Part shown: positions 1-26,848 of the stretch, in pieces | Numbering within the stretch: position 1 is the first letter of the stretch | How the letters are laid out: every line of letters starts with the position of its first letter | DNA from: Photorhabdus heterorhabditis | GTDB taxonomy: Bacteria; Pseudomonadota; Gammaproteobacteria; Enterobacterales; Enterobacteriaceae | Direction of reading: 5' to 3' | Assembly (NCBI RefSeq): GCF_018448905.1 | Contig: NZ_RCWA01000013.1 | Location: 57,978-121,977 of the forward strand | Length of the DNA: 64,000 nucleotides | Notes under the pieces: model-generated | The model's input: the letters and a program-made list of their open reading frames with translations, nothing else | What the model was told of the DNA's origin: nothing | Database searches by the model: none | Program-made: the position numbers and the translations under genes

Positions 1-1042
1 CTTGCCCGTAAAAACAACCAATATTTGTTTCCATTTTGAAGCTATTACTTTCGTCTACCTTCTCATTTTTAAACAAACGGTAGAATCTTGTAGGAGTGCC
101 CCTATCAAACAGTTCTCGTGATTTGGCGGTTGGATCGTCTGATATTAATGCAACGCACTTTTTATCAAATTGAGAAACGTCCGGAGTACTAAGTTCCCAT
201 GAAACCATTTTGACTATGTCCGCACCACTTGGATACTTGCTAACATCAATTTCATTAGCTTCAATATATTTACGAAGCTTTGCAATAGCAGGACCTAATC
301 CATGCGAACTAATTAGTGTTCTCACTATGTGCTCACATGCTTTAAAATCGCTATTTTCAAGCAGAATGAGAAGATCCACAAAGTCCCTAATTGTTAAATA
401 ATCTTTGTTGTAAATTTGAATAAGTATTATCAATATAGAATTAAGATCACTAACTACATTGACATATGTCCCTCTCAAAATAGTGTTGTAGCAGCCAGAA
501 TATAACGACTGTAGTAATATTCTCGAACCATTATCATCGATTGGGTAGTGATCAACATGGATTTCAAATCCACGATCATCATCTTTCCCTTTCGTATATC
601 GGAATGATTTATAAACTTTTTCTGTAACAACATCTTTTATCCAAATAGTACTGAAATATATATCGTACCCATGCTTAATCAACAAAGCATCAAGCAATGG
701 TAAGTGATCTTCTAATACTACCAAATCTGCGTCAAAAGCGAATCGCGAGGCACTTTCATGGTAAAAGCGCTCTACAGATAACCCCTTCAAAACTAGAACA
801 GAATTTTTTAGTTCTGAGGATTTAGCGATATCGTTAAGTACGATCGATTTTTCTCTCTTTTCATTTTCAATATGACAATACTCTTCGCTACTCTGGCCGG
901 TTGCATATACAAACATTGATAGAATCTTCTCTTGGAAGGCAGACTCTTTGTTTAAGACCGATATGTACTTCTTAATTGCTTCAGGCAACCAACCATTTAG
1001 ACAATAATTATAGTATGAATCAATTACTTTAGATTTTTTCAT
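1..1042 (-). CDS. Nucleotidyltransferase-like protein (PF14907 type), partial
   Basis: This minus-strand gene has its start inside the window and its C-terminus beyond the left edge; about 347 codons are visible without a stop. The start is ATG at 1042, preceded by a strong GAGGAG ribosome site. A segment about 85-130 residues in reads LKGLSVERFYHE, then FDADLVV, then a helix and HGYDIYF. This LKG...D-x-D-(L)-(V) layout is that of the 'uncharacterised nucleotidyltransferase' family (PF14907), whose members transfer nucleotides to unknown substrates and often sit in peptide natural-product clusters. The same layout recurs in the gene at 6667, suggesting both serve one system. Base composition is AT-rich like its neighbours to 9.1 kb. 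The family call is by motif only and the substrate is unknown. Confidence 0.6.
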   Translation of the reverse strand, partial: MKKSKVIDSYYNYCLNGWLPEAIKKYISVLNKESAFQEKILSMFVYATGQSSEEYCHIENEKREKSIVLNDIAKSSELKNSVLVLKGLSVERFYHESASRFAFDADLVVLEDHLPLLDALLIKHGYDIYFSTIWIKDVVTEKVYKSFRYTKGKDDDRGFEIHVDHYPIDDNGSRILLQSLYSGCYNTILRGTYVNVVSDLNSILIILIQIYNKDYLTIRDFVDLLILLENSDFKACEHIVRTLISSHGLGPAIAKLRKYIEANEIDVSKYPSGADIVKMVSWELSTPDVSQFDKKCVALISDDPTAKSRELFDRGTPTRFYRLFKNEKVDESNSFKMETNIGCFYGQ

Positions 1043-1342
1043 TGTTTCTTCTCCTCGAAGAAAAAGCCAAATAGAATGGAATAAAAACTAATGCAAATTG
1101 ATACTTTGTTCACCTTCTCTTGTTACATATATTCTATTTCATAGAACCATTGAAATAAACAATATTATTAATGGATGTAATTATTACAATAATTTCATTG
1201 CACAATCTAAGCTTATTTACACCTGTTTATGAATTATAAAATCACATAAAAAAACATTAACCTCATGCCCATTATATAGAGCTTTCCTTTATCATTAACC
1301 TTATCAATTCCTAACCAATTTATGATAAGTTGATAAAACACA
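1043..1342. other. AT-rich intergenic spacer
   Basis: This 300-bp spacer separates the partial nucleotidyltransferase gene from the 3' end of the acyl carrier protein gene. I see no open frame, repeat or clear hairpin. It should hold the promoter of the leftward nucleotidyltransferase gene, but no convincing -35/-10 pair stands out in such AT-rich sequence. Confidence 0.5.
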
Positions 1343-1564
1343 TTAAATAAGACATTTATTTACTAAGACAATAATTGAATTCATATCAGAAAAATCATCA
1401 AACGTAAGATCTTCATCTAGTAGGTTGATATCAAGCTCATTTTCCAAATTAATAATCAAAGAAACAATTTGAAATGAATCCAAGTCATCAAGTGATTTTA
1501 TTTCAGATTTCTTCATAAACTCAATTACTATTATTTCAATATCTAAATTTGATTTTTTGCCCAT
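1343..1564 (-). CDS. Free-standing acyl/peptidyl carrier protein
   Basis: A 73-aa acidic, helical protein with the carrier-protein core LDSFQIVSL. Ser30 is the likely 4'-phosphopantetheine attachment site, in the usual DSx context, followed by the helix II sequence IINLENELDI. It would hold the substrate activated by the adenylation protein encoded immediately upstream. Its start lies inside the 3' end of that gene (22-nt overlap), so the two are almost certainly translationally coupled. The length fits discrete carrier proteins of the DltC or NRPS type. It is the last gene of the leftward operon beginning near 4974. The carrier-protein assignment is strong; the cargo is unknown. Confidence 0.8.
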   Translation of the reverse strand: MGKKSNLDIEIIVIEFMKKSEIKSLDDLDSFQIVSLIINLENELDINLLDEDLTFDDFSDMNSIIVLVNKCLI

Positions 1565-2928
1565 AATTCCAACTTTTTATAATTTACTTTTCCACTTATT
1601 AATGTAGGTACAGATTCGATACAAAAAATTCCTTTCACTTTAACATTCTTAATGAATCCGCAATCAAATATTTCGCCTTCGTTTTTAGGTTGATAAAAAA
1701 TTGTAATTCCAGTATTGCAATCTATATTTTTGTCATAATAAAGAACAACAAAAACCAAAGGATTATTGTTCTTTACTCTTAATTGTTCTTCAAGACCTTG
1801 AAGATCAACTCTATGCCCCATAATCTTAGTCTGCCGATCTATTCTTCCCTCAAAATATACCTCACCATCTAATATAGTTACTAAATCTCCTGTATCGTAA
1901 TACACTTTACCATCGACTTTCACAAAGCTATTCTTTGAAGTACCTATATATCCATTAAAAATTTGAGGTCCTGACAATAATAATTTATATAGATTGCCAG
2001 ATAAATGCTCAGTTTTGTATGACATATCCCCTAAAGCTCGGCCAAGACTAGGTGGGCCTTCAATACCCACATCACTTATCATACATGCGATTGTTGTTTC
2101 AGTTGGTCCATATAAATTAAATATCTTCTGGCAATTAGATATTTGTGCCCAAGAGGTTACGACGTGTTTTCTTAATAATTCTCCGCAAAACAAAGAAACT
2201 TTTAAACTAGACAGTTGATGTGATTTTGGTTTGAGAGAAATCAGCATCTGAGCGAGTGTAGGAACAGAAAACCAATAAGTGAGTTTATTATTTTCCACCT
2301 TATTTAGTAATTGTCCAATTTTTTTGGTTTCTACAGGAGTTATGGAGCTTGCACTCTTCCAACTTAGAAATAGATCATGATAAAAAAGATCAAAAGCTGG
2401 AGAAAATGTATTAGTTAATCGTTCGATGCCTTTTTCAATTTCCAATTCTTCATAGATATTATCAATATAATGTTTTAAGGCTAAATGTGTAATCGGAACT
2501 CCTTTAGGTAAACCAGTAGATCCTGATGTGAACAATATGTATGCAGTTTTTGCTGGCATAATAACTGAATCGTTTCTATCTGCTTTATGTTTTATATGAT
2601 ATACACTAAGATCTTGATTGAGCCTGATATCAGCTTTAACTGCATTAATTATTCGCTCTTTATATTCATCATCCCAATCTGAAATCAAAGGAACTATCGT
2701 ATTCTTGTTTTTCCACATTGCCGAAAAAACAGAATACATATTTATATCCTTTCTTTCAATATCAATAGCAACTACTTTCTCTATCACTTCAGAGAAGTAA
2801 TCTGAAAAATAAACAACTTTGGAAAGGAACTCACCATATGTAATTTCAATGGGATGGTCTCTATAAAAAATAGACTGAGAAAAATTATTTGATGAATAGT
2901 ACAAATATTCAATTACATTGAATGACAT
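1543..2928 (-). CDS. Free-standing adenylation (AMP-forming) enzyme
   Basis: A 461-aa member of the ANL adenylating superfamily. Core motifs appear in order: A3 ILFTSGSTGLPKG at about residues 131-143, A5 NLYGPTE, A7 YDTGD, A8 GRIDRQTKIMGHRV, and the A10 lysine in SGKVNYK near the C-terminus. It should activate a carboxylic or amino acid as an acyl-AMP and load it onto the adjacent carrier protein. It is shorter than most NRPS adenylation domains and closer in size to DltA-like enzymes. The specificity segment (FDLFYHD) keeps the aspartate that binds an alpha-amino group, favouring an amino acid, but the other pocket residues match no code I know. It overlaps the upstream gene by 16 nt and the carrier gene by 22 nt. 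Confidence 0.85.
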   Translation of the reverse strand: MSFNVIEYLYYSSNNFSQSIFYRDHPIEITYGEFLSKVVYFSDYFSEVIEKVVAIDIERKDINMYSVFSAMWKNKNTIVPLISDWDDEYKERIINAVKADIRLNQDLSVYHIKHKADRNDSVIMPAKTAYILFTSGSTGLPKGVPITHLALKHYIDNIYEELEIEKGIERLTNTFSPAFDLFYHDLFLSWKSASSITPVETKKIGQLLNKVENNKLTYWFSVPTLAQMLISLKPKSHQLSSLKVSLFCGELLRKHVVTSWAQISNCQKIFNLYGPTETTIACMISDVGIEGPPSLGRALGDMSYKTEHLSGNLYKLLLSGPQIFNGYIGTSKNSFVKVDGKVYYDTGDLVTILDGEVYFEGRIDRQTKIMGHRVDLQGLEEQLRVKNNNPLVFVVLYYDKNIDCNTGITIFYQPKNEGEIFDCGFIKNVKVKGIFCIESVPTLISGKVNYKKLELWAKNQI

Positions 2929-3785
2929 AGTTCCTCCATTACATGATTGAACATGGGATCAATCTCCAAGAATGAAAATCCCTCAATATAGGAGAAAGCA
3001 CTTGTTCCTATTTCGTCAGTTATAAAGCCACCATTACCTATTACTTCAAATAATTTATATGGGCCAACTAAATGAATAGCTGCGAGAATACCACTTTCGG
3101 ACACTTCAAAAGGAAACTTCTTTTCATTGTTTATATATTTCACTAAGTGAACCAAGTCAAAATTCATACCTATAAGGTTACATAATTTATTAATCCCGCT
3201 AGCCCATATGGCATAAATAATAGTGGTCTGTTTATTTGGTTCATATAGATCTTGCAAATTATTAACCCCAAATTTTCCTGTAAAATCACCTTGCCATGTA
3301 TTATATGATGTACATATGAATGATTCACCTTTAGGATAGTCAAATAGTTCGAATTTATTATTTCCTTTCCATATATATTCAGGGTGAACGAAATCATAGT
3401 AAACCTTATAATTTCTACCATTTATTTCCATATCTTTAGGGTTGTATACTCCTAAAGAGAACAAAGCAGACTCACCAATCTGTATGCCTACAAATCCCCA
3501 AGGATTAATCACTCTAAAACAATTCTTTTCTAGAGAATAATGACTCAAATCATCATAAGTAATATTAACTCCTAAACTATTAAAGTATTGCTCATATGAC
3601 ATGAATGTTAAAACAGGAGCTCCATTAATTGGATTTCTTATTAGTTCTCCGGGCTTCTTAACCAAGAAATACTTGACAGCATCTCTAGAATTAAAGCCTT
3701 TTTTATATATATCCAAATAATCAGGGTTTATCCCAGATTCTTTGTAAAGAATATTCTTTAATATATCGTATTTAGCGTTTATCAT
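2913..3785 (-). CDS. Lysozyme-like (transglycosylase-fold) protein, unknown role
   Basis: A 290-aa protein without an obvious signal peptide. Near the N-terminus it has KESGINP (Glu16), which looks like the catalytic-Glu motif of lytic transglycosylases. Further on come NPWGFVGIQIGESALFSLG (about 94-112), GDFTGKFGV, and ESGILAAIHLVG. This sequence of blocks resembles a lysozyme-like family seen in phage and secreted proteins (GxYQxGExAL ... WTGKxGV ... SGxLAxxHLxG). It lies inside the operon between the condensation-like gene, whose stop is one base before this start, and the adenylation gene, overlapping the latter by 16 nt. A peptidoglycan-type fold in an amide-synthesis operon is unexpected; it may act on a muropeptide or sugar substrate, or confer self-protection. 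The fold is inferred from motifs only. Confidence 0.45.
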   Translation of the reverse strand: MINAKYDILKNILYKESGINPDYLDIYKKGFNSRDAVKYFLVKKPGELIRNPINGAPVLTFMSYEQYFNSLGVNITYDDLSHYSLEKNCFRVINPWGFVGIQIGESALFSLGVYNPKDMEINGRNYKVYYDFVHPEYIWKGNNKFELFDYPKGESFICTSYNTWQGDFTGKFGVNNLQDLYEPNKQTTIIYAIWASGINKLCNLIGMNFDLVHLVKYINNEKKFPFEVSESGILAAIHLVGPYKLFEVIGNGGFITDEIGTSAFSYIEGFSFLEIDPMFNHVMEELCHSM

Positions 3786-3786
3786 A

Positions 3787-4974
3787 TTATTTAAAATTTA
3801 GATTATGTGAATTATTAAAATTTTCAATTAACAAATAAAATAACCCTCTAATATAATACTCTTCGTAATCAAGAGAAGAGAAGTCTAGAATTAAATCACA
3901 ATATTCAGAATCAATAATAAGTCCAATACCTATATGCATAATTCGACATGCTCCACGATCATTGACTAAAATTTTATGTTTGTACTGTGTGTTAATTTTT
4001 CCTATAAACCATTTTTTATTTATTACATTTAGGCAAATTGATGGGAATTGTATACCAACCTCTCCATATTCAGTTTTACTAGCAAGCAGAGTATTAGTAT
4101 CGCCACCATATAGAGTATTCATTAGCACTCTGGATCTGATATCATTGACACAGTAACCATTTTCGCTCTTTTTTATTATCAACGGCCGTATCTCATTCAA
4201 CCATCCTAATGTATATCTAGGATCTATCGAATAAGTAGGTTCTCTTCCATGTTGATTTAACCCTATATATAAGTGTTCTCCTCCAAAAAACTCATCAAAT
4301 GACGATGCAATGGCTTTAATTAAATGGGCTGTAATCATATTGTCTGATGTAGATCTTAAAACTTTATGACGAAGAACTGAGGTACTGGACTCTAATTTCA
4401 TATCTCTAATTGGAAATCTTGATTTCTCAGAGTTATGAATTTTTAACTCACAATATTCTTTTATGAAACCTAAATTATATTTGTTATTTCTTGATTTCTT
4501 ACCCAGTTTAGAAGATACAAAGTTTTTAATATGGTTCTTCTCATATAAATCCCAGTTAGTATCCTCTCCAGATAACAGATTTGAAATCATTCCATTGGAA
4601 AGTGCATCAGATAAGAAATGATTTACGGCAAAGAAAAAACTTAAGCCATTAGTGGTTTCTTTTAAAAATAAAGTAAGTGGTTTTATCAAATTATAATCAG
4701 ATAACATTTCATGTTCATAATCTTCATAAGCCATTATCTTTATTTTTACTTCACCTACAGGTTTAACACGCAAGTCAGTTGTTATCGTGTAGTGAACAAA
4801 TAACTCAGGGCATATTTTCGACAGCCTAGATAAGTTAGAATTGAGTTTTTCTTTTGCATCATCACCATATATATGAAATTCTGGTGTTGTTGATAGCCAT
4901 TTGTAAAACTCAGAATTACGGCGATCTATAAAAGTAACTCGATTTGATAGTATATTTAAGTAGTAATCCATCAC
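3787..4974 (-). CDS. Condensation-domain-like acyltransferase
   Basis: A 395-aa protein with a single condensation/acyltransferase HxxxD motif in the context VNHFLSDALS (His119, Asp123). This is the catalytic motif of NRPS condensation domains, carnitine acyltransferases and alcohol acyltransferases. A later DFSSLDYEEYY stretch may correspond to the bridging region of the second half-domain. It is the first gene of the tight four-gene operon ending at 1343. As no other condensing enzyme is present, it probably joins the carrier-bound acyl group to an amine or hydroxyl acceptor. Overall similarity to standard condensation domains looks low; the first HH histidine is replaced by Asn. The acyltransferase role is likely, the substrate unknown. 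Confidence 0.6.
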   Translation of the reverse strand: MMDYYLNILSNRVTFIDRRNSEFYKWLSTTPEFHIYGDDAKEKLNSNLSRLSKICPELFVHYTITTDLRVKPVGEVKIKIMAYEDYEHEMLSDYNLIKPLTLFLKETTNGLSFFFAVNHFLSDALSNGMISNLLSGEDTNWDLYEKNHIKNFVSSKLGKKSRNNKYNLGFIKEYCELKIHNSEKSRFPIRDMKLESSTSVLRHKVLRSTSDNMITAHLIKAIASSFDEFFGGEHLYIGLNQHGREPTYSIDPRYTLGWLNEIRPLIIKKSENGYCVNDIRSRVLMNTLYGGDTNTLLASKTEYGEVGIQFPSICLNVINKKWFIGKINTQYKHKILVNDRGACRIMHIGIGLIIDSEYCDLILDFSSLDYEEYYIRGLFYLLIENFNNSHNLNFK

Positions 4975-5082
4975 TCACTCCAAACGGGTTTATCATTAAT
5001 AAATTATTACACTAGAGTGCAAGTTGGTAATTAATTCTTAATTAACTACCGTCAGTAGATAGAATACAACTCATTTGTAAAT

Positions 5083-5853
5083 TCACATCACTTCATTTTC
5101 CAACCTTAATATTTGTCTATTTAGCTGTGCCTTTGCTGTCGGAAATTTATCGAAAAAATCAGACTGTTCACAAAGTAATTTGTGACATTCTTTAATTCTT
5201 TTTTCATTGAATTTACTTGATGTTAACTGATTAATAGAATGCTTGTTGACCTCAATGTAAATCTGATTTATAGGTACCGGATGAATATTGTTCTTTAGCA
5301 AGCGAATAACTAGTTCTGTATCTTCTATATATCTGTATTTTGGATTAAAGTATCCGATATCCTTAAGTGCTTCTCTTGCGCAAGTAAGTCCATATCCAGT
5401 TCCAATCCTTAAAGCTGTCACTACCAAATCTGAAAAACTATCATATTCAATAGGAAATTTTATATCGAATTGACTTACACAAGATTCGGATACTCGATCT
5501 AAAACTTTCACGCTTGACCAATAAAAACAAGATTTATCAACGCTATTTAAAATTTCATTATGTAATCTTTCCAAATAATTAGGTAACATTATGTCATCAT
5601 CATCTAGGAAAGTTATATAATCTCCACTTGCATGTTTACATCCAATACTTCGACAAAAACCTGGACCTTTACCTAAGTTACTTTCAATAACTGTCACATT
5701 AGGTATATGTAAAAAAATGTTACCAATAGATTTTTCTGCATCATTAACTATGATAATTTCTTTATTCAAGAATTTCTGTGAATTAACGCTGTTAACTGCA
5801 TTCAGTAGCATTGATGGCCTATTAATTGTTGGAATTATTACTGAAATTTTCAT
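5083..5853 (-). CDS. Family 2 glycosyltransferase
   Basis: A 256-aa GT-A fold enzyme. It opens MKISVIIPTINRPSML, continues with EIIIVNDAE and NLGKGPGFCRSIG, and has the metal/nucleotide-sugar motif FLDDDDIMLPNYLE near residues 86-99, all typical of GT2. A later segment (YIEDTELVIRLLKN) carries the ED acidic pair that usually provides the base. It is predicted to be cytoplasmic and to transfer a sugar from an NDP-sugar. The start is preceded by GAGGGA. It lies 108 bp upstream of the condensation-like gene on the same strand, so it may be co-transcribed and glycosylate the cluster product. The family call is secure; donor and acceptor are unknown. Confidence 0.85.
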   Translation of the reverse strand: MKISVIIPTINRPSMLLNAVNSVNSQKFLNKEIIIVNDAEKSIGNIFLHIPNVTVIESNLGKGPGFCRSIGCKHASGDYITFLDDDDIMLPNYLERLHNEILNSVDKSCFYWSSVKVLDRVSESCVSQFDIKFPIEYDSFSDLVVTALRIGTGYGLTCAREALKDIGYFNPKYRYIEDTELVIRLLKNNIHPVPINQIYIEVNKHSINQLTSSKFNEKRIKECHKLLCEQSDFFDKFPTAKAQLNRQILRLENEVM

Positions 5854-6666
5854 AATTTTTCCCTCATATAATTAAATTGGGGACACATATATGATACTAA
5901 CTACCATTATATTTTTTACATTTCACTATCAATGCAGAAACACGATTCACAAAGTATGGAAAGTTATAGATCATAGTTATCTAACAATATTAATAACTAG
6001 AGATATCGTTAACCTTATAAATTTAATATTCCCATCAATATGAACCCCCTCTTTAACATGATCAACACTACAATTAACATCATTCTCAACACTTTAGAAT
6101 AATTTATTAAAATTGAACCATAGGAAATAACAATAATGTGAAACCAGTCACATATATGATTTATTCTCTTTTCAATATCTTGCCCATCTAAGTAATCTAA
6201 GTAATCTAAGTAATCTAAGTAATCTAAGTAATCTAAGTAATCTAAGAAACAGTCTCTTTCCAAGAGAATTGGTTGTGTAGTGCATATGAATTTGGCGACC
6301 TATATAATGGATATAATGGAGGTATTCGAATCCGCTTCATAGATAAATAGGTGACGTTATGACAAGAGCATACTCGGCGTATTTAAACGTGAAATAAAAA
6401 AAGGTAGCGCCAGAGGAACTCGGAAACGGAAAAAGAAACCAGTACACCTGGAGGGCAGAACGAAAAAACACTACCCTCTCTTGATGTTCGACTCACTGAA
6501 CAATTCTCGATAATCGATAAACTTAGGCAGAGCTCTAAATGTAATAAATTTTTTGTGATTTATTCAGTAGAAAAAGTTAAAAATTCTAGCATCGTCGATC
6601 TAAGCGGGTCCTACCTTAAGAGATGTCAGATATATACAGTAATTATTAAATAAAGAGGTATATGAT
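5854..6666. other. Divergent intergenic region with a 9-bp tandem repeat
   Basis: This 813-bp gap separates the leftward glycosyltransferase operon from the rightward nucleotidyltransferase gene and should hold both promoters. It contains six perfect 9-bp tandem repeats at 6187-6240. A minus-strand frame through them (6015-6263) would encode a Tyr-Leu-Asp repeat followed by hydrophobic sequence, but it lacks a ribosome site and I do not call it a gene. The part from about 6380 to 6500 is less AT-rich than its surroundings and may be a remnant of something else; I could not identify it. Confidence 0.5.
6187..6240. repeat. 9-bp tandem repeat, six perfect copies
   Basis: The unit tctaagtaa is repeated six times without a mismatch, followed by a seventh copy with one change. 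The period is a multiple of three, so copy-number change would not shift a reading frame, but it would change promoter spacing in this divergent region. Perfect copies indicate recent expansion by slippage. Confidence 0.95.
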
Positions 6667-7734
6667 ATGAATACTACAGTTACAAATTCAAAAATTTTAT
6701 ACACATTAACTTCCTTATGTAGAACTGATTATGAAAATGTGAATAAAAGTCAATTGATTGATATTATGAATCGTACGGAATTTCCTTGGGATCGGTTCCT
6801 TTCAGTAGTCAATAGGCAAAAAATTGTAGGCATCGTCTATAAATCTCTGTCTGAAATGAAATTACTCCATCTAGTGCCTTATAGAGTAGCAAGTGCTATA
6901 AAATATATTTATTTAGCAACAACCAAGAGAAATCAGGTGCTTATGGATGAATTGATTACTATTTTAACGGCATTTAAGGAGGAAGGAATTGATATAAGGC
7001 CTCTAAAAGGCTCTGTTTTGTTGGATTTGATATATACCGACTATGGTACACGAACACTAAACGACTTAGATTTTTTTGTTAGCAAAAATGACTTAAAAAG
7101 ATTGCCAAAAATTATGAATAATTTAGGTTATATTCAAGGAGAGTATAATGTTAATGACAAAACGTTAACTGAACTTAGTCGTGAAGACAAATTAATGTGG
7201 AAAGTAAAGATGTTTAACCTTCCACCATTTTGTAAAATCCACTCAGAACCCACTGTTGATATTATATCTATAGATTTTACTTTTGGACTATCATTTTCTG
7301 ACAATAAAGACATTAATGAAAAAATTCTATCAACTGATTCTATTCTAAATAACAAAAAAACATTATCCAATATTGATTTTTTTATCCATTTATGCACTCA
7401 TTTATATAAGGAGGCTTCAAACGAAGCATGGGAAAATTTTGCTCAAGATATCAATTTAATAAAATTTTGTGATGTTAGAGAGTATTACTACTTTTTGTCA
7501 AAAAAAATAGATAATGATGACATTATATCTAGAGTGAATGAGTTGGGTGTTGAAAAAGCATTCTCTTTCTCAATACTCTATTCGTCCATTTTATACAATG
7601 ACAATAATTTAATTAAACTTCTGGAAAGAATAAATTATTCAAAATATAACTTCCAAGAAGTATACACTCAAAACAATGAGATAAATAAGATAAAGTTAAA
7701 CTCAGTCAGTGAATCTATTCTACTTGTAAAATAG
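6667..7734 (+). CDS. Nucleotidyltransferase-like protein (PF14907 type)
   Basis: A 355-aa protein with the signature PLKGSVLLDLIY (about 113-124), then TLNDLDFFVSKNDL (about 131-144) and NNLGY, matching the 'uncharacterised nucleotidyltransferase' family in which LKG and D-x-D residues line the active site. In this family some members occur beside lasso-peptide or NRPS-like genes. The ATG follows an AAAGAGG ribosome site. It is the complete counterpart of the partial gene at the left window edge, sharing the motif order but not close sequence. It is followed after 34 bp by the MATE exporter and probably forms an operon with it. Catalysis is inferred from motifs; the substrate is unknown. Confidence 0.65.
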   Translation: MNTTVTNSKILYTLTSLCRTDYENVNKSQLIDIMNRTEFPWDRFLSVVNRQKIVGIVYKSLSEMKLLHLVPYRVASAIKYIYLATTKRNQVLMDELITILTAFKEEGIDIRPLKGSVLLDLIYTDYGTRTLNDLDFFVSKNDLKRLPKIMNNLGYIQGEYNVNDKTLTELSREDKLMWKVKMFNLPPFCKIHSEPTVDIISIDFTFGLSFSDNKDINEKILSTDSILNNKKTLSNIDFFIHLCTHLYKEASNEAWENFAQDINLIKFCDVREYYYFLSKKIDNDDIISRVNELGVEKAFSFSILYSSILYNDNNLIKLLERINYSKYNFQEVYTQNNEINKIKLNSVSESILLVK

Positions 7735-7768
7735 TGATAGACATACTCTAAGTTTATAGTATAAAACT

Positions 7769-9094
7769 ATGAAGATTAGTGAAATATTAAGACTAGCCAT
7801 CCCCATTTCAATTCAGAGTTTGGTTTTCTCTTGCTTAGGTTATATCGATATTTTTATGGTATCTAAGCTAGGGGAGGCCAATGTCGCCGCAATTGGAATT
7901 GCGGCTAAAGTAACATGGCTAAACATTACATTGCTCATATCGTTAACTGCCACTTTATCTATATTTTTATCGAATTATGTTGGTTCGGGAAATGTAAAAA
8001 GCCAAACTTCAATAATACAAATATCTCTATTGTTTTTATTAACAGTATCTACAATACAGTCTATTATTCAGGCATTGTTTTCTTATCATGTATCTTCTAT
8101 TTTTACCGATAATTTAGAAGTCTCGCTTCTTTGTTCAACTTATTTAAAATACACTTCACCTTTATATTTATTTAGTTCACTATCACTAATTATTGACACA
8201 ATCAATAGGTGTCATAAAAAACCATCCATATCAACAAAAATAACCATTCTAGAGGTCATAATTGCGGTTTTCTTAAACTGGGTTATGATATATGGAAATT
8301 TATCATTTCCTGAGATGGGTATCATAGGTGCAGCTTTATCAACAACAATAGCTAGAATAATCAGAACAATTGTTGGTTCTTATATATTAGTAAAAATTTA
8401 CACCTATAAGTATTTTATAAGTACAATATATTTAAATTCTTTTAAGCCACTAGTTGTTGATTATTTTTCAAAGTTTCTACCTATTTTATTAACCAATATA
8501 ATATGGTCGCTTGGAATCGCTACGTATCAGTTTCTCATTGGAAAACTAGGAGTTGATTATATAGCTCTACACTCTGTTATTTCCTCCATAGAATCCGCAT
8601 TCTTAGCAATATCTTGGGGAGTAGCTACTTCATCTGGGATATTAGTTGCTAGAAGACTAGGATATGGATATAGCATAGCTGAGCTAGATAGATATTTAAA
8701 AAAGCAGAAGTTATCAGTTTACTTATATTCATTGGTAACTAGCGTGACTTTCTTTATAGTGCTTTATTATTTTTCAATATATTATAATGTAAGATATGAT
8801 TTTACATATCTATTGTTTTTCCCATTGATTTTTTTGCTAAAATGCATATCTGTATATTATCTAACTATACTTCAAAATTGCGGTGATACGAAAAATAACC
8901 TAAAGTTGAATTTTATCTGCCAATGGTTAGTATCCATACCAATTTCAACTATTCTTATAATACACCTAAACTGTACTTATATTTCAATTTTGGCTATGCT
9001 AACTGTTGAAGAATTACTCAAAGTTATCTTTTTGCATGTTAGGTTGAAAAATTTGTCATGGATTGATGATGTTAAATTGACTAGAGGCTGTTGA
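7769..9094 (+). CDS. MATE-family efflux transporter
   Basis: A 441-aa integral membrane protein with about twelve hydrophobic segments. The N-terminus reads ILRLAIPISIQSLVFSCLGYIDIFMVSKLGEANVAAIG, which is the usual MATE opening (P near the first helix, D in helix 1, then MVSxLG). The second half repeats the pattern (FLPILLTNIIWSLGIATYQ). MATE proteins export small molecules in exchange for Na+ or H+. Its position at the end of the AT-rich island, 34 bp after a nucleotidyltransferase gene, suggests it exports the product of the adenylation/condensation operon or gives resistance to it. The family is secure; the substrate is inferred from position only. Confidence 0.85.
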   Translation: MKISEILRLAIPISIQSLVFSCLGYIDIFMVSKLGEANVAAIGIAAKVTWLNITLLISLTATLSIFLSNYVGSGNVKSQTSIIQISLLFLLTVSTIQSIIQALFSYHVSSIFTDNLEVSLLCSTYLKYTSPLYLFSSLSLIIDTINRCHKKPSISTKITILEVIIAVFLNWVMIYGNLSFPEMGIIGAALSTTIARIIRTIVGSYILVKIYTYKYFISTIYLNSFKPLVVDYFSKFLPILLTNIIWSLGIATYQFLIGKLGVDYIALHSVISSIESAFLAISWGVATSSGILVARRLGYGYSIAELDRYLKKQKLSVYLYSLVTSVTFFIVLYYFSIYYNVRYDFTYLLFFPLIFLLKCISVYYLTILQNCGDTKNNLKLNFICQWLVSIPISTILIIHLNCTYISILAMLTVEELLKVIFLHVRLKNLSWIDDVKLTRGC

Positions 9095-9215
9095 CGTTTT
9101 GGAAGGGGGTTTAAACAGCATGATGGTCTGGTAGAGAGCATAAAAATCTGCGGGGCACGGTGTTAAATCGGCGATAGAATGAGCAAAGGAACATCATTCT
9201 ATCAAACACCTCACC

Positions 9216-9978
9216 ATGAAAACTTATATTGTGAAAATCGCCCTTCGAGGTATCAGTCCAATGGTCTGGCGCCGATTCAGATTGTCAGGCGAAACGTCTT
9301 TAGCGGCTTTGCACTATATCATTCAGATCGCGCAAGGATGGCAGGATGACCATCTGCATCAATTCCGTATTTATGGCAAAAATTACGGTATTTCCTACGA
9401 GGGTGGGATCGGGTTTTCAGATAATCCCTACAAAATTACACTGGATGATTTTGAATTTGATGCCGGTGACCACTTTACCTACGAGTACAACTTTTTCGAG
9501 CCCTAGCTTCACGATATCCATATTGAAACGGTTCTCGAAAACTCTCGCCTGAAGTCCCCTTTTTGTCTGGTCGGAAACAGAATGCCCGGTGCCACGTCAG
9601 AGGACAGGGCGGGATTCTACTTTGCGTAAAAATTATACATTTCGCAGATATTGATAATTTCTCACATTCAATACGATTTTATTGATAGGTTTTGATATCT
9701 GGCATGAACATTTATTGAGCTAGTAGAGGGTTGTTTTTATCCACAATAACCATATAGAAAATGTGAGATCCCGCCCTGCGTCAGAGGATGAAGCGACGAA
9801 AACACTGGCATTACTCAATGCAATTATTCATGCTGATGACACAACACACGTCAGAAAAATCCGCCCATTGATAGATGAACTGGATACTGTCCGATTCAAC
9901 CGCCGAAAGGTTAATCGCCAATTAAGCCGGCTTAACCTTGATGCACCGGAAATGGAACCCATCGTCATAGGGCTGTAG
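9216..9978 (+). pseudogene. Plasmid pRiA4b ORF-3-like (IS1096 TnpR-type passenger) pseudogene
   Basis: The first 96 codons (opening MKTYIVKIALRGISPMVWRRF, with AQGWQDDHLHQF following) match the pRiA4b ORF-3-like family. A TAG at 9504-9506 interrupts it just where the family normally has Trp; the same frame continues with LHDIHIETVLEN and FCLVGNRMPGATSED, which are family sequence. A 174-bp MITE then splits the frame at 9605-9778. If the MITE and one copy of its 10-bp target duplication are removed, the frame continues exactly into EATKTLALLNAII and ends at 9978. The rebuilt product is about 190 aa, near the family's normal length. Two independent lesions make it a pseudogene. Confidence 0.75.
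9605..9778. mobile_element. 174-bp MITE with 10-bp target duplication
   Basis: Perfect 11-bp terminal inverted repeats (cagggcgggat) lie at 9605-9615 and 9768-9778. The flanks are a perfect 10-bp direct repeat, cgtcagagga, at 9595-9604 and 9779-9788. The interior has no coding capacity. Excising the element plus one flank restores the reading frame of the host pseudogene, which proves insertion. The mobilising transposase is not in this window. Confidence 0.85.
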
Positions 9979-10234
9979 CGGGTAGGATGATCGGTATCCA
10001 TAAAGGTATACGTTAAAGTGGCTTCTTTAGCTGCTTTGCCACATAAATGCCCCAAGGTTTTTTATGCTCTCTGTTGGTTATGCCTTTGATGAAAACGGAT
10101 TGGCGATTATTCGATTTACATTTAAACAACTTTATTATGTTGTTCAAGTGGGTAAAACTGATAAAAAAAGGTTAAACCAGGAATAGGTAATAAAACTACT
10201 ACGTCCAAAAAAAGTGAGGAGGCTAAATTAAAAA

Positions 10235-11191
10235 ATGAAAAATGGACTATTTACCCGGCACTATCCAAAAAAGAATCGACATGGCGTTGGTCTTTGGATT
10301 AAAAAATTAGCGCTAATGTTTGGCATATGTGCAAATATCATTTCTTGCTCTCAGGCTGTGGAAACAATGAAAGTTAATTACACCATTAATTTTAATACCA
10401 ATGCGGCTTTTTGTTTGGCTAAAGTTAACGATATTTTGGTGATGGATAGTGGTGATTCTGTTGGAGGTAATTACTCAGCAGGACAAACCATCAGCTCTAT
10501 TCTGGAAAACGGTAAAAATACCCTGACGGTATCTATGCATAATGCACTATGGGGTGAACCAGAGAAGAAACCGACTCCTGATATGTGGTGTTCGGTGCTT
10601 CTAAAAACAATTAATCAATTTGGCGAAGAACAAACGGTTACCGGTATCAAGCTAATTGTGGACAAGAATGGAAATGTTACTGTAGATAAAGATTTCTATC
10701 CACCTCCAGTAAATGCTTTTGGTAAGACGGAACGTCACTACGAAGATGACACAAGAGAAGCCACTAAAGATTTTTACGCAGAAGATTTACCTGATTGGGA
10801 ATGGACAAAAGCCACACCTGTTACGAAAGCTGATATCCCCAAAGTCAAAGTATTTTATGAAGAATTACAACAAGCCTTTGCTCAGCAAGACCTCAAAAAA
10901 ATTCGGTCAATGACAAAAGCAGCCTGGGAAATAATGGGGAAAGAGAGAGGTGCTTCGCCTGATTTTATGTGGGACTCTATGGATTTTAAAGGTTTTTTTG
11001 AAAAAGGTTATAAAGCTGTTCCTATTAGCTGGGATAAATATGAATTTTATACCTACAAAAACAACCGAATATTTCGTTTTGAATATGATTACGACAGAGT
11101 TTCACCGATAGAATTAGAAAAGGGTGACGATGTTTTTTTCTATAATCCTTATCTCTCTATCGTTGATGGCAAAGTTGTGGTGGTTCATTAA
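10235..11191 (+). CDS. Putative exported lipoprotein of unknown function
   Basis: A 318-aa protein. The N-terminus has basic residues, a hydrophobic stretch (LALMFGICANIISC) and a lipobox-like IISC ending at about residue 45, suggesting a lipoprotein signal with a long n-region; the true start could be a later Met. The mature part begins with a beta-rich region (KVNYTINFNTNAAFCLAKVND, then DSGDSVGG) followed by a charged helical region rich in Lys, Asp and Trp and a C-terminal beta segment (DVFFYNPYLSIVDGKVVVV). The ATG follows a GAGGAGG ribosome site. I do not recognise the family. It stands alone between the IS-like remnant and glnS. Confidence 0.65.
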   Translation: MKNGLFTRHYPKKNRHGVGLWIKKLALMFGICANIISCSQAVETMKVNYTINFNTNAAFCLAKVNDILVMDSGDSVGGNYSAGQTISSILENGKNTLTVSMHNALWGEPEKKPTPDMWCSVLLKTINQFGEEQTVTGIKLIVDKNGNVTVDKDFYPPPVNAFGKTERHYEDDTREATKDFYAEDLPDWEWTKATPVTKADIPKVKVFYEELQQAFAQQDLKKIRSMTKAAWEIMGKERGASPDFMWDSMDFKGFFEKGYKAVPISWDKYEFYTYKNNRIFRFEYDYDRVSPIELEKGDDVFFYNPYLSIVDGKVVVVH

Positions 11192-20071: not shown

Positions 20072-22219
20072 TTAGCTTTTGCCAACTTGCTGATTCCATA
20101 AATGAGCGTATAAACCTCCTTGCTGAAGCAGTTGGTCATGTGAAGCAAATTCGACGATTTGTCCCTGATCTAACACACAAATTTTATCGGCATGGCGAAT
20201 GGTATTGAGTCTGTGAGCTATGCTAATGACTGTTCTATTGCGGCATATTTCATCCATATTTGCCATGATTGCCGCTTCGGATTCATAGTCTAGTGCGGAG
20301 GTAGCTTCATCGAGGATCAGAATAGTTGGGTTGACGAGAAGTGCCCTTGCCAATGCGATTCTCTGTCTTTGACCGCCAGAGAGATTTGAACCCTTTTCTC
20401 CGACTGGATGTGCAAAACCGTGAGGAAGAGATTGAATAAATTCAATAGCACCGGATAACTCAGCTGCTCGATAGACTTCTTCATCGGTTGCGTTGGGTTT
20501 ACATAGCCGGATGTTATCGGTGATGCTACCGGAAAACAAAATACTTTCCTGGAGTACAACACTCATATTGCGGCGTAAAGAGACGGGATCAGCAATGGCT
20601 AAATCCATACCATCGACCAGAACTTGCCCATGTTGAGGTACATAGAGTCTTTGTAACAAACGGGTAAGAGTACTTTTACCTGAACCAGATGGCCCTGTTA
20701 TACCAATAAATTCGCCGGATTTTATGGATAACGAAAGGTTTGCCAGCACTTCCGGCGTGTCATCATGATAGCGGAAACGGATATTTCTGAATTCAATCTG
20801 GCCTTCCAGCTCAGGTACGGAAGCCAGCCCCTGTTTACTGTTTTCCATCGGCTCATCAAGAATATCACCCACACGTTTCAGGGCGATTAATGTATGTTGA
20901 AAATCCTGCCAAACTTGTGCGAGCCGGAGGATAGGTTGGGTGACATGTCCGGCAAGCATATTAAAAGCAATGAGCTGCCCAGGGGTCAGTTCACCACGTA
21001 AGACTTCGGTTACTCCCCACCATAAGAGGATGGCTGCGGTAAATTTTTGGACAAAATCGATTCCCTGTCCGGCGATTAGACCACTTTTCTGTGCTGCGAA
21101 GCTTTTCGTTAACTGTTGGCTGAGAATGCGTTGCCACTGATGTAAAAAACGGTTTTCAGTGGCGGTTGTTTTAATGGTTTCAATCCCTGTGACGGCTTCA
21201 GTCAGAAAACTTGTTGCATTGGCATCACTTTCATATTCTGCTTCTACCTTGCGACGAATAACCGGTCCGGCAATTATCCAGAGTACGAAATAAACGAAGA
21301 GTGAACCAATGACAATCCAGGTCAGTATCCAGGCATAATAAAACATAATGCCAATAAACATGATGACAAAGATGAGATCCAGTAACAGCATCAAAGTAGA
21401 ACCGGTCAAGAACTGGCGGATTTGTGACATTTCTCTGACTCTGGCAATGATCTGCCCTGTTTGTCGTTGTTTAAAATATTGCAACGGTAAACCTGTCAGA
21501 TGACGATATAATCTCCCGGATAGTTCAGAATTTATCTGGCTTGCCATATGCCCAAAGACAGTATTGCGCATAAAGCTATATAAAGGTTCTGCAAGGGCAA
21601 TGGCGAGCATAGCCATACCTAATACATGAAGACTGGATAAACTTCGTCCTACCAACACCTTATCAATGATGTTCTCAAACAGAATTGGGCTGATCAGTGC
21701 AAAGAGTTGAAGAACAATAGCAAATAAAAACAGATCTCTTATTTGATTTTTCTGCCGGAAAATTGAGGGATAAAACCAACTCAAGCTGAATTTGATATGC
21801 TTTTTAATTAATTCCTGATCTGCGATCAAAAGAATTTTATATAAATTTTCTTTGGTATCATCGGGTAAAGAGAGTAACCGTATTTGCTCAGTAACAGGAT
21901 CGAGAACTGTCATATTGGCGTTATTGATTTCAATAAGCACCCACCACTGTTGCTCCAGTTCGATCAATGCGGGTAAGGGCAAAGTTGGTCCGGTATTGGC
22001 AGTTAAGCGTTCAATTTTACTGTGCAGTCCGATGGTGTCGGCGGCTTCACGTAGTTGTAAATCACTCAGATAGAGAGAATCAAAACCAAGGCTGTGTTGA
22101 AGTTGATCGACTGTGGCTGATTTATGAAATTGTTTCCCCACATAGACGATGCAATCCAGCGCCTGATTATTATGGGCGTAATCGTTGGAACTGGTAGTAG
22201 AAGATAGCAATACGTTCAC
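20072..22219 (-). CDS. rtxE: MARTX type I secretion ABC transporter (second ATPase)
   Basis: A 715-aa HlyB-type exporter half. The order is an N-terminal C39-like domain (about 15-130) that seems to lack the aligned catalytic cysteine and so probably only binds substrate, six membrane helices (about 165-440), then an ATPase with Walker A GPSGSGKST, signature LSGGQRQRIALARAL and Walker B ILILDEATSALD. It is the last gene of the leftward rtxB-D-E operon and starts 2 bp after the rtxD stop. MARTX systems characteristically use two such ATPases, thought to work as a heterodimer. I named it rtxE by the Vibrio gene order; the two ATPases are otherwise hard to tell apart. Confidence 0.88.
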   Translation of the reverse strand: MNVLLSSTTSSNDYAHNNQALDCIVYVGKQFHKSATVDQLQHSLGFDSLYLSDLQLREAADTIGLHSKIERLTANTGPTLPLPALIELEQQWWVLIEINNANMTVLDPVTEQIRLLSLPDDTKENLYKILLIADQELIKKHIKFSLSWFYPSIFRQKNQIRDLFLFAIVLQLFALISPILFENIIDKVLVGRSLSSLHVLGMAMLAIALAEPLYSFMRNTVFGHMASQINSELSGRLYRHLTGLPLQYFKQRQTGQIIARVREMSQIRQFLTGSTLMLLLDLIFVIMFIGIMFYYAWILTWIVIGSLFVYFVLWIIAGPVIRRKVEAEYESDANATSFLTEAVTGIETIKTTATENRFLHQWQRILSQQLTKSFAAQKSGLIAGQGIDFVQKFTAAILLWWGVTEVLRGELTPGQLIAFNMLAGHVTQPILRLAQVWQDFQHTLIALKRVGDILDEPMENSKQGLASVPELEGQIEFRNIRFRYHDDTPEVLANLSLSIKSGEFIGITGPSGSGKSTLTRLLQRLYVPQHGQVLVDGMDLAIADPVSLRRNMSVVLQESILFSGSITDNIRLCKPNATDEEVYRAAELSGAIEFIQSLPHGFAHPVGEKGSNLSGGQRQRIALARALLVNPTILILDEATSALDYESEAAIMANMDEICRNRTVISIAHRLNTIRHADKICVLDQGQIVEFASHDQLLQQGGLYAHLWNQQVGKS

Positions 22220-22221
22220 GA

Positions 22222-23577
22222 TTATTTCTCCCTCAATGCTTCAGACTGATACTCTCTGATAGGACTCAGGAGATAATCGATAACGCGGCGTTGATCAGTT
22301 TTGATTTCTGCGACAATTGACATACCCGGGGTAATTTCAACACTGGTATTGTCTATGACAATATGACTACTTTTAAGGCTTACCTGAGCAGGAAAGACCA
22401 GCCCTAATTGTTCATCAGTGGTTGAATCTCTGGATATGCTCATCAATTCGCCGTCGATAGTGCCATAACGTGTGTAGGGGAAGGCGTCTACCTTAACGGT
22501 GACCTGCTGTCCGGGATAAACAAACCCAGCATCTTTGTTTAAAATTTGCACTTCTGCCAGTTGTACATCGTCATCAGGTACAATTACCATTAAGTTTTGT
22601 GCCGGTTGCAGTACCGCACCTAAAGTATGCACACTGAGTTGTTGCACAGTTCCTGTGACGGGGGAGCGAATGACTTCGAGTTGTTCCCGTACCTGAGCTT
22701 TTGAAAGTTCTTGTTCTAAGACGACCAATTGAACTTCGGCCTGTTTTCTTTTATCAAACCATTCGCGTTCTTTTTGTGTTTTCAGGCTGTTTAGTCGTTT
22801 TTCAAGGTTAATATATTGTGATTGCAGAACATTAAGTTCGGCACTTTGCTGAGCAATCAGACGTTCTGTTTCCAGGAACTCTTTTTCCTGTTCAAGATAT
22901 TCAACTTTACTGATCACTTGTTTCTCACTTAAGGTTTGGCGTGCCTTTAAACGCTGGCTAATATTCTGCCTAAGCTTAGTGAGCGCATTAATGTCACTTT
23001 TTCGTGCTTGTTGAGAAGCGAGATTGACGTTCATCTCTGCTTTCAGATTTGTTATGCCCGCTTCATATTCTCTTTTCTCACGGGAATAGTTTTCAATAAT
23101 TTGTGTTTGTTGAGATATTGGCAATGTTTGAAACAGTTCCTGTTCTGCTGGTTCTTGTTCCTCAGTCAAAGCTTGATAACGAATCTTTTCATGGACTTGA
23201 TATTCAATCTGCTTGAGTAATCTGGCGATATCTTGATTAACGCCAAGTGTATCTAATGTCAGGAGTGGTGTATCTTTAATCACCTGCTGTCCGTTCTGAA
23301 CATGGATAGCTGTCACTCGGCTTTGTTCATACGCTTGAATTATCTGAGAGCGGCCGGAGACAATCAGGCGGCCAGTTGCTGTTGCCTGAACATCCAATTT
23401 ACCCAGATATGCCCAGAGCAGCGCTATGATGATGCCTACACTAAGCATGATTGCGGTGTAGCGGGCAAAAGGTGAAGGAGGACGCTGAGATAATGCTAAA
23501 TGTGTTGGCAAGAAATCATAGTGCTGTGGGCAAAAGCCCAACCGGGTTTTAATTTTATCCTTAAACGCCTTAAGCAT
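22222..23577 (-). CDS. rtxD: MARTX secretion membrane fusion protein
   Basis: A 451-aa HlyD-family adaptor linking the inner-membrane ATPases to an outer-membrane TolC-like channel (no tolC gene is present here). It has a short cytoplasmic N-terminus, one membrane helix (YTAIMLSVGIIIALLWAYLG, about 40-60), a biotinyl-lipoyl half motif, a long coiled coil (about 130-300, rich in Gln, Glu, Lys and Leu), the second lipoyl half (VIRSPVTGTVQQLSVHTLG) and a beta-barrel with the typical GMSIVAEIKTDQRRVIDYLLSP ending. It overlaps the upstream transporter gene by 8 nt. Confidence 0.93.
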   Translation of the reverse strand: MLKAFKDKIKTRLGFCPQHYDFLPTHLALSQRPPSPFARYTAIMLSVGIIIALLWAYLGKLDVQATATGRLIVSGRSQIIQAYEQSRVTAIHVQNGQQVIKDTPLLTLDTLGVNQDIARLLKQIEYQVHEKIRYQALTEEQEPAEQELFQTLPISQQTQIIENYSREKREYEAGITNLKAEMNVNLASQQARKSDINALTKLRQNISQRLKARQTLSEKQVISKVEYLEQEKEFLETERLIAQQSAELNVLQSQYINLEKRLNSLKTQKEREWFDKRKQAEVQLVVLEQELSKAQVREQLEVIRSPVTGTVQQLSVHTLGAVLQPAQNLMVIVPDDDVQLAEVQILNKDAGFVYPGQQVTVKVDAFPYTRYGTIDGELMSISRDSTTDEQLGLVFPAQVSLKSSHIVIDNTSVEITPGMSIVAEIKTDQRRVIDYLLSPIREYQSEALREK

Positions 23578-25675: not shown

Positions 25676-26008
25676 GAAAAAACATCTTTAGAATTTGCAT
25701 AGAGTATTAATAAGAACAGAGCATTATGTTGCCTGTTTGTTATGTTTTCATTTAATTGTCACTTTATTATCTTATATTTGTTGCTGGTAACGGTGTGTAG
25801 GTAAATAGGACTATGTATGGGGGGTAAAAAGACTTTCTGATATATAAATATTGTCTTTGAATTTTTGCTCTATATTATTTTATTTGATTCACTCATATAA
25901 AAGCATTTATAGCTAGATAACTTCATAATATCTTTGTATTTAATGCTTTCACTGTTGTACGTATTGTACAATCTTATTAATAAGTTGTTTGTTTTTTGGT
26001 AAATAAAT
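25676..26008. promoter_or_regulatory. Divergent promoter region of the rtx locus
   Basis: This 333-bp, very AT-rich spacer must hold the promoters of both rtxB-D-E and rtxH-C-A. A direct repeat of ttgtac with 9-bp spacing (25955-25960 and 25964-25969) creates the palindrome attgtacaat and is a candidate operator about 40 bp before rtxH. No reliable -35/-10 pair can be chosen by eye. Confidence 0.4.
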
Positions 26009-26365
26009 ATGTCTGAAAAATTTGTACAAACTGTCTCTAGCGTCAATTATAACAAGGGCGTTTTCTCTCTTTATTTTGTTGGTCAGGAATCCAATCGTAT
26101 GGCGAATGGAGTAATGGCGGAAAATGACAATGAACTTGAATTAAAACAAGTTATTCATATGCCAGCATCGGGATTTATGTATATGGTGTCGATGGTTAAA
26201 AATATGTTGGAAGATCCACGCATGGCGGCTGAATTTGATAAATTGATAGCGGCAGGGTTTTTACCGGCGCCGCAATTGCCGGAAGAACAGATTACATCAG
26301 AAGCTGAAGTTATGGTGGAAGAACCTGCGAATGCGAAGAAACGTGCAGCTAAAAACGAAAAATAA
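26009..26365 (+). CDS. rtxH: RtxH-like conserved MARTX-locus protein
   Basis: A 118-aa cytoplasmic protein, opening MSEKFVQTVSSVNYNKGVFS, then LELKQVIHMPASGFMYMVSM, then an acidic and a Lys/Ala-rich tail. It lies where rtxH lies in Vibrio MARTX loci: first gene of the rtxH-C-A unit, just before the acyltransferase gene. Its function is unknown. A truncated second copy of its first 27 codons lies at 27599, so the locus once had two. The call rests on position and remembered family resemblance. Confidence 0.7.
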   Translation: MSEKFVQTVSSVNYNKGVFSLYFVGQESNRMANGVMAENDNELELKQVIHMPASGFMYMVSMVKNMLEDPRMAAEFDKLIAAGFLPAPQLPEEQITSEAEVMVEEPANAKKRAAKNEK

Positions 26366-26386
26366 CATCTGATGGTTGAATAACGC

Positions 26387-26848
26387 ATGGCGATTATACA
26401 TCAGCCAGTGAAACTGAATACCGCAGAAATACAGGCAATGATCGGAGGAGTGATGCTATTGAGCCAGCATTCTCCTCTTCATCGCAGATATTTGGTGTCT
26501 GAATGGCAGCAGCGTATTTTGCCTGCATTTGAACTCAATCAGTTTTGCTACTATGAAGATGAACATGGGCGCCCTATTGCTTTCTGTAATTGGGCTTTTT
26601 TGTCGGAACAAAATCGGGAGGAACTGCTTGCGGGAGAAAGAGAGCTTACTCATACGGATTGGCGTTCAGGTCCATATATCTTTTTTCCCGAAATGATTGC
26701 GCCTTTTGGTCATGGGCGTGAAGTTGCCAGAGATTTACGCCGCCGTGTCTTTTTGCCATGGAAAGGCCAGAAAGCTTGTACTGTCCGCGGAAAACTTGAT
26801 ACTCAAAATAATCGTTGTATCCGTCAGGTACAGTGGTTCTTTGTTTAA
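26387..26848 (+). CDS. rtxC: RTX toxin-activating lysine acyltransferase
   Basis: A 153-aa HlyC-family enzyme that uses acyl-ACP to acylate internal lysines of the toxin. The catalytic His is His32 in HSPLHRRYLVSEW, equivalent to HlyC His23. The second conserved block is FFPEMIAPFGHG; lined up with HlyC FIDWIAPFGD, the residue at the place of catalytic Asp92 is Glu, a conservative change. It starts 21 bp after rtxH and lies 1.16 kb before rtxA, a gap enlarged by two ERIC elements and a pseudogene. In Vibrio this gene is usually much closer to rtxA. Confidence 0.88.
   Translation: MAIIHQPVKLNTAEIQAMIGGVMLLSQHSPLHRRYLVSEWQQRILPAFELNQFCYYEDEHGRPIAFCNWAFLSEQNREELLAGERELTHTDWRSGPYIFFPEMIAPFGHGREVARDLRRRVFLPWKGQKACTVRGKLDTQNNRCIRQVQWFFV

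Follow-up and report, generated by a model that had tools for sequence, protein, structure and literature searches.

What does the strongly AT-rich block of genes at one end of a 64,000-nucleotide stretch of the Photorhabdus heterorhabditis genome make, and how did it come to lie there? The stretch, hereafter the window, covers positions 57978-121977 of contig NZ_RCWA01000013.1 (C13), in a genome assembly of 5.05 Mb and 226 contigs. The block belongs to a composite-transposon-like unit of 14,158 bp that extends from L002:11893 to window position 10072, where L002 denotes coordinates covering the left flank (window position = L002 position minus 15978). The left end of the unit lies 4,086 bp before window position 1, and the window holds its part 1-10072. 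With moderate confidence we read it as a mobile unit carrying a compact specialised-metabolite pathway, whose product would be a glycosylated, perhaps nucleotidylated aminoacyl-amine.

Ends, insertion site and gene content of the unit

The unit is bounded by two elements of the pRiA4-ORF3 (PF07929) type with 25-nt inverted ends, which are inverted relative to each other. The left element (L002:11893-12648, minus strand; PF07929, 87.5 bits) and the right element (window 9133-10072, plus strand) share 751 of 756 aligned bases, and the right one holds a 174-bp insertion. The 7-bp repeat GTTGGTT is found at both outer flanks as a target duplication. The sister species G664 (94% identity in glnS) has the empty site, with one copy of the heptamer, there GTCGGTT, within an open reading frame (ORF) of 550 aa; the left flank continues into the right flank, and the two match at 40 of 50 and at 40 of 52 bases, respectively. 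The duplication and the empty site are the trace expected after the 14,158-bp unit moved whole. Pfam names no transposase gene in the end elements: the left one contains only the PF07929 protein (96 aa), which is repeated in the right one. We therefore use the label composite-transposon-like and assume that the mobilising enzyme came from elsewhere. The insertion in the right element (window 9605-9778), which is absent from the left element, is bordered by direct repeats of 10 bases, CGTCAGAGGA, and its ends are GC-rich and inverted. Compared with G664, the present genome lacks about 1.2 kb of the target ORF, from about 50 bp to the right of the unit (window 10073-10235).

Between the end elements lie an HD hydrolase gene, regarded as a passenger (L002:12750-13472, minus strand; PF01966, 51.3 bits), and 11 core genes, all of them open frames. 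The first run of core genes, on the minus strand, encodes a nucleoside diphosphate kinase (NDK; L002:13647-14117; PF00334, 123.7 bits), a DegT aminotransferase (L002:14111-15196; PF01041, 200.8 bits), a 2-oxoglutarate-oxygenase-like protein (L002:15193-15966; TauD, 22.0 bits with a cut-off of 27) and PF14907 nucleotidyltransferase 1 (window 1-1042, whole gene L002:15950-17020; 44.1 bits), whose final ~9 codons and stop fall outside the window, to the left. The NDK, DegT and oxygenase-like genes overlap at their ends. A 300-bp gap separates this run from the next, also on the minus strand, which encodes a putative acyl/aminoacyl carrier protein (ACP; window 1343-1564), a free-standing adenylation (A) enzyme (1543-2928; PF00501, 120.8 bits), a lysozyme-motif protein of 290 aa with no leader peptide (2913-3785), a condensation-like (C-like) HxxxD protein (3787-4974) and a glycosyltransferase of family 2 (GT2; 5083-5853; PF00535, 80.7 bits). 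The ACP and A genes overlap, as do the A and lysozyme-motif genes, and the C-like gene ends 1 base from the start of the lysozyme-motif gene. On the plus strand, the gene for PF14907 nucleotidyltransferase 2 (6667-7734; 163.8 bits) adjoins that for a MATE exporter (7769-9094; PF01554, 113 bits). Both nucleotidyltransferases pass the PF14907 cut-off of 31.2 bits.

The original prediction, which was made from the window alone, had described eight of these ORFs as an AT-rich island. All eight exist; Pfam supports the A enzyme, GT2, the two PF14907 proteins and the MATE exporter, whereas the HxxxD and lysozyme-like proteins have no believable match and the ACP stays below cut-off. The base composition agrees with the island: the GC content per kb is 27-36% at 1-9000 vs 40-45% at 14-19 kb, with 37-45% at 9-13 kb and 31% at 13-14 kb. 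Window position 1 is the edge of the window and not of the cluster, because three more core genes and the HD hydrolase gene lie to the left. The leftward extension that the prediction had proposed reveals the oxygenase-like, DegT, NDK and HD hydrolase genes and the left end element; this left part and the transposon-like nature of the ends were out of reach of the prediction.

Distribution in Photorhabdus, Vibrio and Acinetobacter

The cluster is present in three of 13 Photorhabdus genomes: the present genome, the complete genome G668 (5.69 Mb), and G665, whose contig is identical to a contig of P. australis DSM 17609. The block is 97-99% identical to that of G668 and 97.7-99.8% identical to that of G665/P. 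australis, far above the glnS identities of 89% (G668) and 92% (G665), and the cluster therefore appears to have moved between Photorhabdus species. The G668 copy is located at a different genomic place, beside what appears to be a PVC unit. Across the 11 core genes, 82.5 synonymous and 62.5 nonsynonymous changes separate the present genome from G668; dN/dS is computable for nine of these genes, with values of 0.10-0.40. In G668 the MATE gene is split by an inserted transposase-like gene and the other ten core genes are open. In the P. australis copy GT2 was not found, only the last 182 nt of the A gene are left, and the genes for the lysozyme-motif and C-like proteins are truncated.

Homology to G668 and P. 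australis ends at the inner edge of the right element (window 9133-9137), and the right border is for that reason perhaps old. Between the divergent GT2 and PF14907 genes, a 9-base sequence, ATCTAAGTA, is repeated in tandem as six perfect units (window 6177-6248); neither the corresponding gap of G668 nor the contig of P. australis shows the pattern with at least three units. An Rfam scan of window 1-10200 gave no match at the gathering score, and promoter- and terminator-like sites were not above those in shuffled sequence.

Related gene sets occur outside the genus. The lysozyme-motif protein as a query matches 8 plasmid records, five of them from Vibrio or Acinetobacter, and GT2 matches 10 plasmid records, of which the best five are the same five. 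GT2 is 37-38% identical to its counterparts in Vibrio and 34% in Acinetobacter; for the lysozyme-motif protein the values are 30% and 32%. In both genera the GT2/lysozyme-motif pair is accompanied by nucleotidyltransferase-like, nucleotide-kinase, pyridoxal-phosphate (PLP) enzyme, amide-forming and exporter genes. The plasmids of V. lentus (L007) and V. nigripulchritudo (L008) carry genes for a MATE protein, an orotidine monophosphate (OMP) decarboxylase, a class V PLP enzyme, a cupin-like protein (named by eye; two ORFs in V. nigripulchritudo), a TMK-like kinase and a second OMP decarboxylase, together with the lysozyme-motif protein, a condensation protein (PF00668, 35.9 bits in V. lentus), GT2, a nucleotidyltransferase-like protein, an ACP and an A enzyme. 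A V. ouci scaffold (L017) matches 13 V. lentus ORFs, from MATE through a phosphopantetheinyl transferase. These three Vibrio clusters share with the present one GT2, the lysozyme-motif protein, a nucleotidyltransferase-like protein, a nucleotide kinase, a PLP enzyme, A, ACP, condensation or condensation-like and MATE proteins, but have the class V PLP, cupin-like and TMK-like proteins and two OMP decarboxylases where the present cluster has DegT, the oxygenase-like protein and NDK. The two OMP decarboxylases (L007:9702-10409 and L007:13160-13993) are of different type, with DxK-type catalytic motifs by eye; the pair is perhaps explained as resistant copies of a target.

The plasmid of Acinetobacter sp. 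SAAs474 (L009), the one examined of the two Acinetobacter plasmids, encodes GT2, the lysozyme-motif protein, a TMK-like kinase, a protein of the amino-acid/uridylate-kinase family, two D-Ala-D-Ala-ligase-like (ATP-grasp) enzymes, a DegT-like protein, an MFS protein and an NDK fusion, which in its C-terminal part is similar to TM1012, a putative nucleotidyltransferase (E 7e-4). It thus shares with the present cluster GT2, the lysozyme-motif protein, NDK with a nucleotidyltransferase-like domain, a DegT-like protein and an exporter, and differs in having the two ligase-like enzymes instead of A/ACP/C and in its TMK-like and amino-acid-kinase-family proteins. Transposase genes are interspersed, so the limits of the set are unsure. 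The unusual core shared with Vibrio and Acinetobacter hints at an undescribed natural-product family.

A scan of genome contigs with strict patterns, covering 56 loci with at most 10 kb on each side, found GT2 of the cluster subfamily only in L017; locus L016 of that scan is the deleted P. australis copy. A class-wide profile search of 369 genomes gave the present genome and one weak match (G617), and the C-like protein has no plasmid match at E ≤ 0.01. The A enzyme as a query matches 110 records, and the three neighbourhoods examined among the 15 listed, those in V. tubiashii, V. coralliilyticus and Pseudochrobactrum, differ from the cluster. A GT2 match in Pantoea soli was likewise set aside; its locus contains an EpsG-family protein, glycosyltransferases and a tyrosine autokinase.

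Candidate enzymes and the proposed pathway

The condensation, oxygenase and lysozyme assignments are drawn from motifs, and the corresponding activities are putative. The lysozyme-motif protein has no believable Pfam match, and no model or structure names its family; its profile finds in the PDB only matches of E 0.58 and worse, with unrelated names. Glu16 and Ser17 (the ES motif) are invariant across 27 aligned rows, and a lysozyme fold is a suggestion drawn from this motif. Elsewhere the family mostly forms the N-terminal part of longer proteins. In each of 18 Vibrio proteins (L102-L119) a leader-like stretch is visible by eye, in some only after upstream extension of the ORF and in L116 and L118 only in part, whereas the five cluster copies examined start near the lysozyme-like motif and have no leader. 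A simple hydrophobicity score does not separate the groups (1.10 for the Acinetobacter copy; 0.67-1.13 for 4 of the 18 Vibrio proteins). In a tree, which carries a long-branch warning, one branch (support 91/73) has all five cluster copies on the same side. A CBM5/12 domain was found in one of five relatives scanned. L102-L119 are in themselves apparently secreted Vibrionaceae proteins, many of 630-770 aa, with a lysozyme-like part that has no Pfam name.

A relative of the lysozyme-motif protein is present in 23 of 296 Vibrionaceae genomes, two of which, G673 (V. ouci) and G918, have the short cluster type; the G918 locus has GT2, C, OMP decarboxylase and TMK-like genes. Relatives on Rhizobium, Ruegeria and Nitrogeniibacter plasmids have no such cluster beside them, and those in the host-family genomes G025, G043 and G074 have no GT2 of the cluster subfamily within ~20 kb. 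A phage origin was considered and rejected, as 50,697 phage records contain no relative at E ≤ 1e-3.

Of the 17 PDB sequences that match the A enzyme at E ≤ 1e-20, the best is 4oxi, which we take to be AlmE. Of nine positions taken to form the pocket, seven agree with 4oxi in the alignment. AlmE activates glycine and can mis-activate D-alanine (PMC12930378). The likeness of the pocket to that of this glycine-activating enzyme leads us to expect a small amino acid. The A enzyme and the ACP have the DltA and DltC models among their top matches; DltC, at 23.6 bits, is the best NCBIfam match of the ACP and lies below its cut-off of 68 bits. The ACP has no Pfam match at E ≤ 10, and its D-S-F motif is kept, as judged by eye. 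In the C-like protein, the motifs HFLSD and GRE..GWLNEIRPL and a C-terminal stretch follow one another, by eye, in the order of the Vibrio condensation protein, to which the similarity is weak (hhalign E 0.014, probability 3.2%; BLASTP E 0.033). The oxygenase-like protein is named from HTD and NNRRCIHGR motifs, read by eye, of a kind known from clavaminate-synthase-like enzymes. The NDK is one of two NDK matches in the genome. Nucleotidyltransferase-like proteins recur with nucleotide kinases, once within one polypeptide, and a nucleotide-bearing intermediate or product is therefore plausible; the nucleotide might be an active part, a handle or a means of self-protection.

Gene content, open frames, selection, mobility and the recurrence of the GT2/lysozyme-motif pair in similar company are directly supported; for the substrates, the order of steps and the product we infer the following scheme. 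The oxygenase-like and DegT enzymes would supply an oxidised precursor and an amine, which may be an amino sugar or an amino nucleoside. The A enzyme would activate a small amino acid, probably glycine or alanine, and load it onto the ACP, from which the C-like protein would transfer it to the amine as an amide in the manner of lincosamide synthetase. GT2 would add a sugar, and the cytosolic lysozyme-motif protein would trim or transfer sugar. The PF14907 enzymes, with nucleoside triphosphate from the pathway's NDK, would place a nucleotide onto the compound, where it would be either a constituent of the product or a protecting group, and the MATE pump would export the compound.

A wider proposal, which we regard as possible and offer tentatively as a whole, is that the Photorhabdus, Vibrio and Acinetobacter sets all belong, as variants, to a single undescribed class of mobile antibiotic-like pathways. 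The class would be marked by a cytosolic enzyme recruited from a secreted, partly chitin-binding lysozyme-motif family; GT2 and a pair of nucleotidyltransferase and nucleotide kinase would build aminoacylated, nucleotide-bearing glycosides, and the amide step would be interchangeable, by A/ACP/C or by ATP-grasp enzymes.

Alternative readings and known systems

Several observations weigh against the pathway reading and its extension to the other genera. The C-like protein, on which the amide step would depend, has nothing believable in Pfam (top 12.9 bits, no PF00668) and no PDB sequence at E ≤ 10, and the oxygenase-like protein scores under the TauD cut-off. NDK and ACP differ from their G668 counterparts by 2 and 1 nonsynonymous changes, respectively, and by no synonymous ones. 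The Vibrio A enzyme is only ~25% identical to that of the present cluster, and the condensation protein there is not detectably related by BLASTP; the Vibrio nucleotidyltransferase-like protein reaches 19.2 bits with PF01909, whose cut-off is 21, and the C-terminal domain of the L009 NDK has no Pfam nucleotidyltransferase model at E ≤ 10. The GC content is also uneven: from L002:13647 to window 9094, the NDK, DegT, oxygenase-like and PF14907-1 genes have 35-39%, while the other seven core genes (ACP to MATE) have 24-31%, as if two sources had been joined. This difference and the 300-bp gap between the runs would fit two unrelated sets that travel together and have no common product, NDK-DegT-oxygenase-PF14907 on one side and ACP-A-lysozyme-motif-C-GT2 with PF14907-MATE on the other. 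We consider this unlikely, as PLP, nucleotide-kinase and nucleotidyltransferase-like genes (of other subfamilies) adjoin the GT2/lysozyme-motif pair in Vibrio and Acinetobacter, and three Photorhabdus genomes retain both runs, one of the three incompletely. Even less probable is a decaying genomic island with no function: the losses in P. australis (GT2, most of A, parts of the lysozyme-motif and C-like genes) and the split MATE gene of G668 point that way, but the present genome has open frames for all 11 core genes and G668 for all of them except MATE, with dN/dS of 0.10-0.40 wherever it is computable.

The two remaining explanations accept a working gene set. In a surface-modification locus of the AlmEFG or Dlt kind, the A/ACP/acyltransferase proteins would attach glycine or D-alanine to lipid A, to O-antigen or to some other sugar of the envelope, with GT2 and the MATE-like protein serving the glycan; the relatedness of the A enzyme to 4oxi (presumably AlmE), the Dlt models among the top matches of A and ACP, and several polysaccharide-making PDB relatives of GT2 are in line with it. 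We doubt it, since no AlmG- or DltB-type enzyme was found by Pfam among the 12 island proteins, such a locus would have no use for the second NDK, DegT and the two nucleotidyltransferases, and the Acinetobacter set uses ATP-grasp ligases. Nucleotidyltransferases of aminoglycosides and lincosamides nucleotidylate these antibiotics, and the Pol-beta type is best known from antibiotic inactivation. The pathway may thus run as proposed with its nucleotidyltransferases acting solely in self-protection, by nucleotidylating the finished compound, so that the active product bears no nucleotide. That familiar role and the position of one PF14907 gene beside the exporter favour this variant, which we hold to be less likely than not. 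The dedicated second NDK, the two OMP decarboxylases and TMK-like kinase in Vibrio, and the fusion of NDK with a nucleotidyltransferase-like domain in Acinetobacter suggest instead a standing demand for nucleotides.

The mobile pathway for a glycosylated aminoacyl-amine, which we continue to prefer, can be set beside three known systems. In lincosamide synthetase (LmbC, LmbN-CP, LmbD and partners), a free-standing A enzyme loads a discrete carrier, and an amino acid and an amino sugar are joined as an amide (PMC4351081); the present cluster likewise encodes a free-standing A enzyme and a putative discrete carrier. It differs in that its amide candidate is a condensation-like HxxxD protein and in its extra nucleotidyltransferases, NDK and lysozyme-motif protein; families of the mycothiol-type partners LmbE and LmbV were not found by Pfam among the 12 island proteins. 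AlmEFG, for lipid A glycylation in V. cholerae, likewise combines a free-standing A enzyme of similar pocket with a small carrier (PMC12930378), but the present cluster has many extra genes and, by Pfam among its 12 proteins, no AlmG-type acyltransferase. The operon for 3'-amino-3'-deoxyguanosine (ADG) in Photorhabdus luminescens, with homologues of pur10, pur4, pur7 and pur3 of the puromycin cluster and an MFS gene, is also an AT-rich Photorhabdus cluster with an exporter (PMC9239236). The present cluster has A/ACP/C, GT2 and nucleotidyltransferases in addition. Its DegT enzyme would correspond to the Pur4 homologue, which we take to be a DegT-type aminotransferase. Counterparts of pur10, pur7 and pur3 were not found: for none of the 12 island proteins does Pfam name an NAD-dependent oxidoreductase, a Nudix or an inositol-phosphatase-type family. 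The cluster is not the ADG operon.

A literature search that covered few subscription journals gave no description of the present cluster; a query for a composite transposon with a Photorhabdus gene cluster returned only a Pseudomonas paper. For TTO1, PMC4971723 counts six 'Other' clusters, and the present one may be among them. The proposal of a biosynthesis and export cluster is supported in part, by a block shared among three of 13 Photorhabdus genomes and by constraint at the protein level. Its genes were expected to co-occur elsewhere: the GT2/lysozyme-motif pair does so with similar gene types in Vibrio and Acinetobacter, but the C-like protein and the A enzyme have no close relatives there. 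The idea of a nucleotidylated compound has gained, with nucleotide enzymes in each cluster type.

Farther to the right, window 46615-62169 contains an ORF of 5184 aa with 51% GC that is non-ribosomal-peptide-synthetase-like, judging by its first residues. The region of window 20072-38929 contains ORFs of 715, 451 and 701 aa, the first two of which resemble type I secretion parts (by eye, first residues), and beyond them an ORF of 3639 aa.

If our reading is true, a GT2 subfamily, a lysozyme-motif protein with no signal and a nucleotidyltransferase would together provide a searchable hallmark for natural-product clusters that lack large synthetases. It would also be a case of an entire pathway that travels from one Photorhabdus species to another within a single transposon-like unit, and the question would arise of what job a lysozyme-motif protein performs in the cytoplasm.

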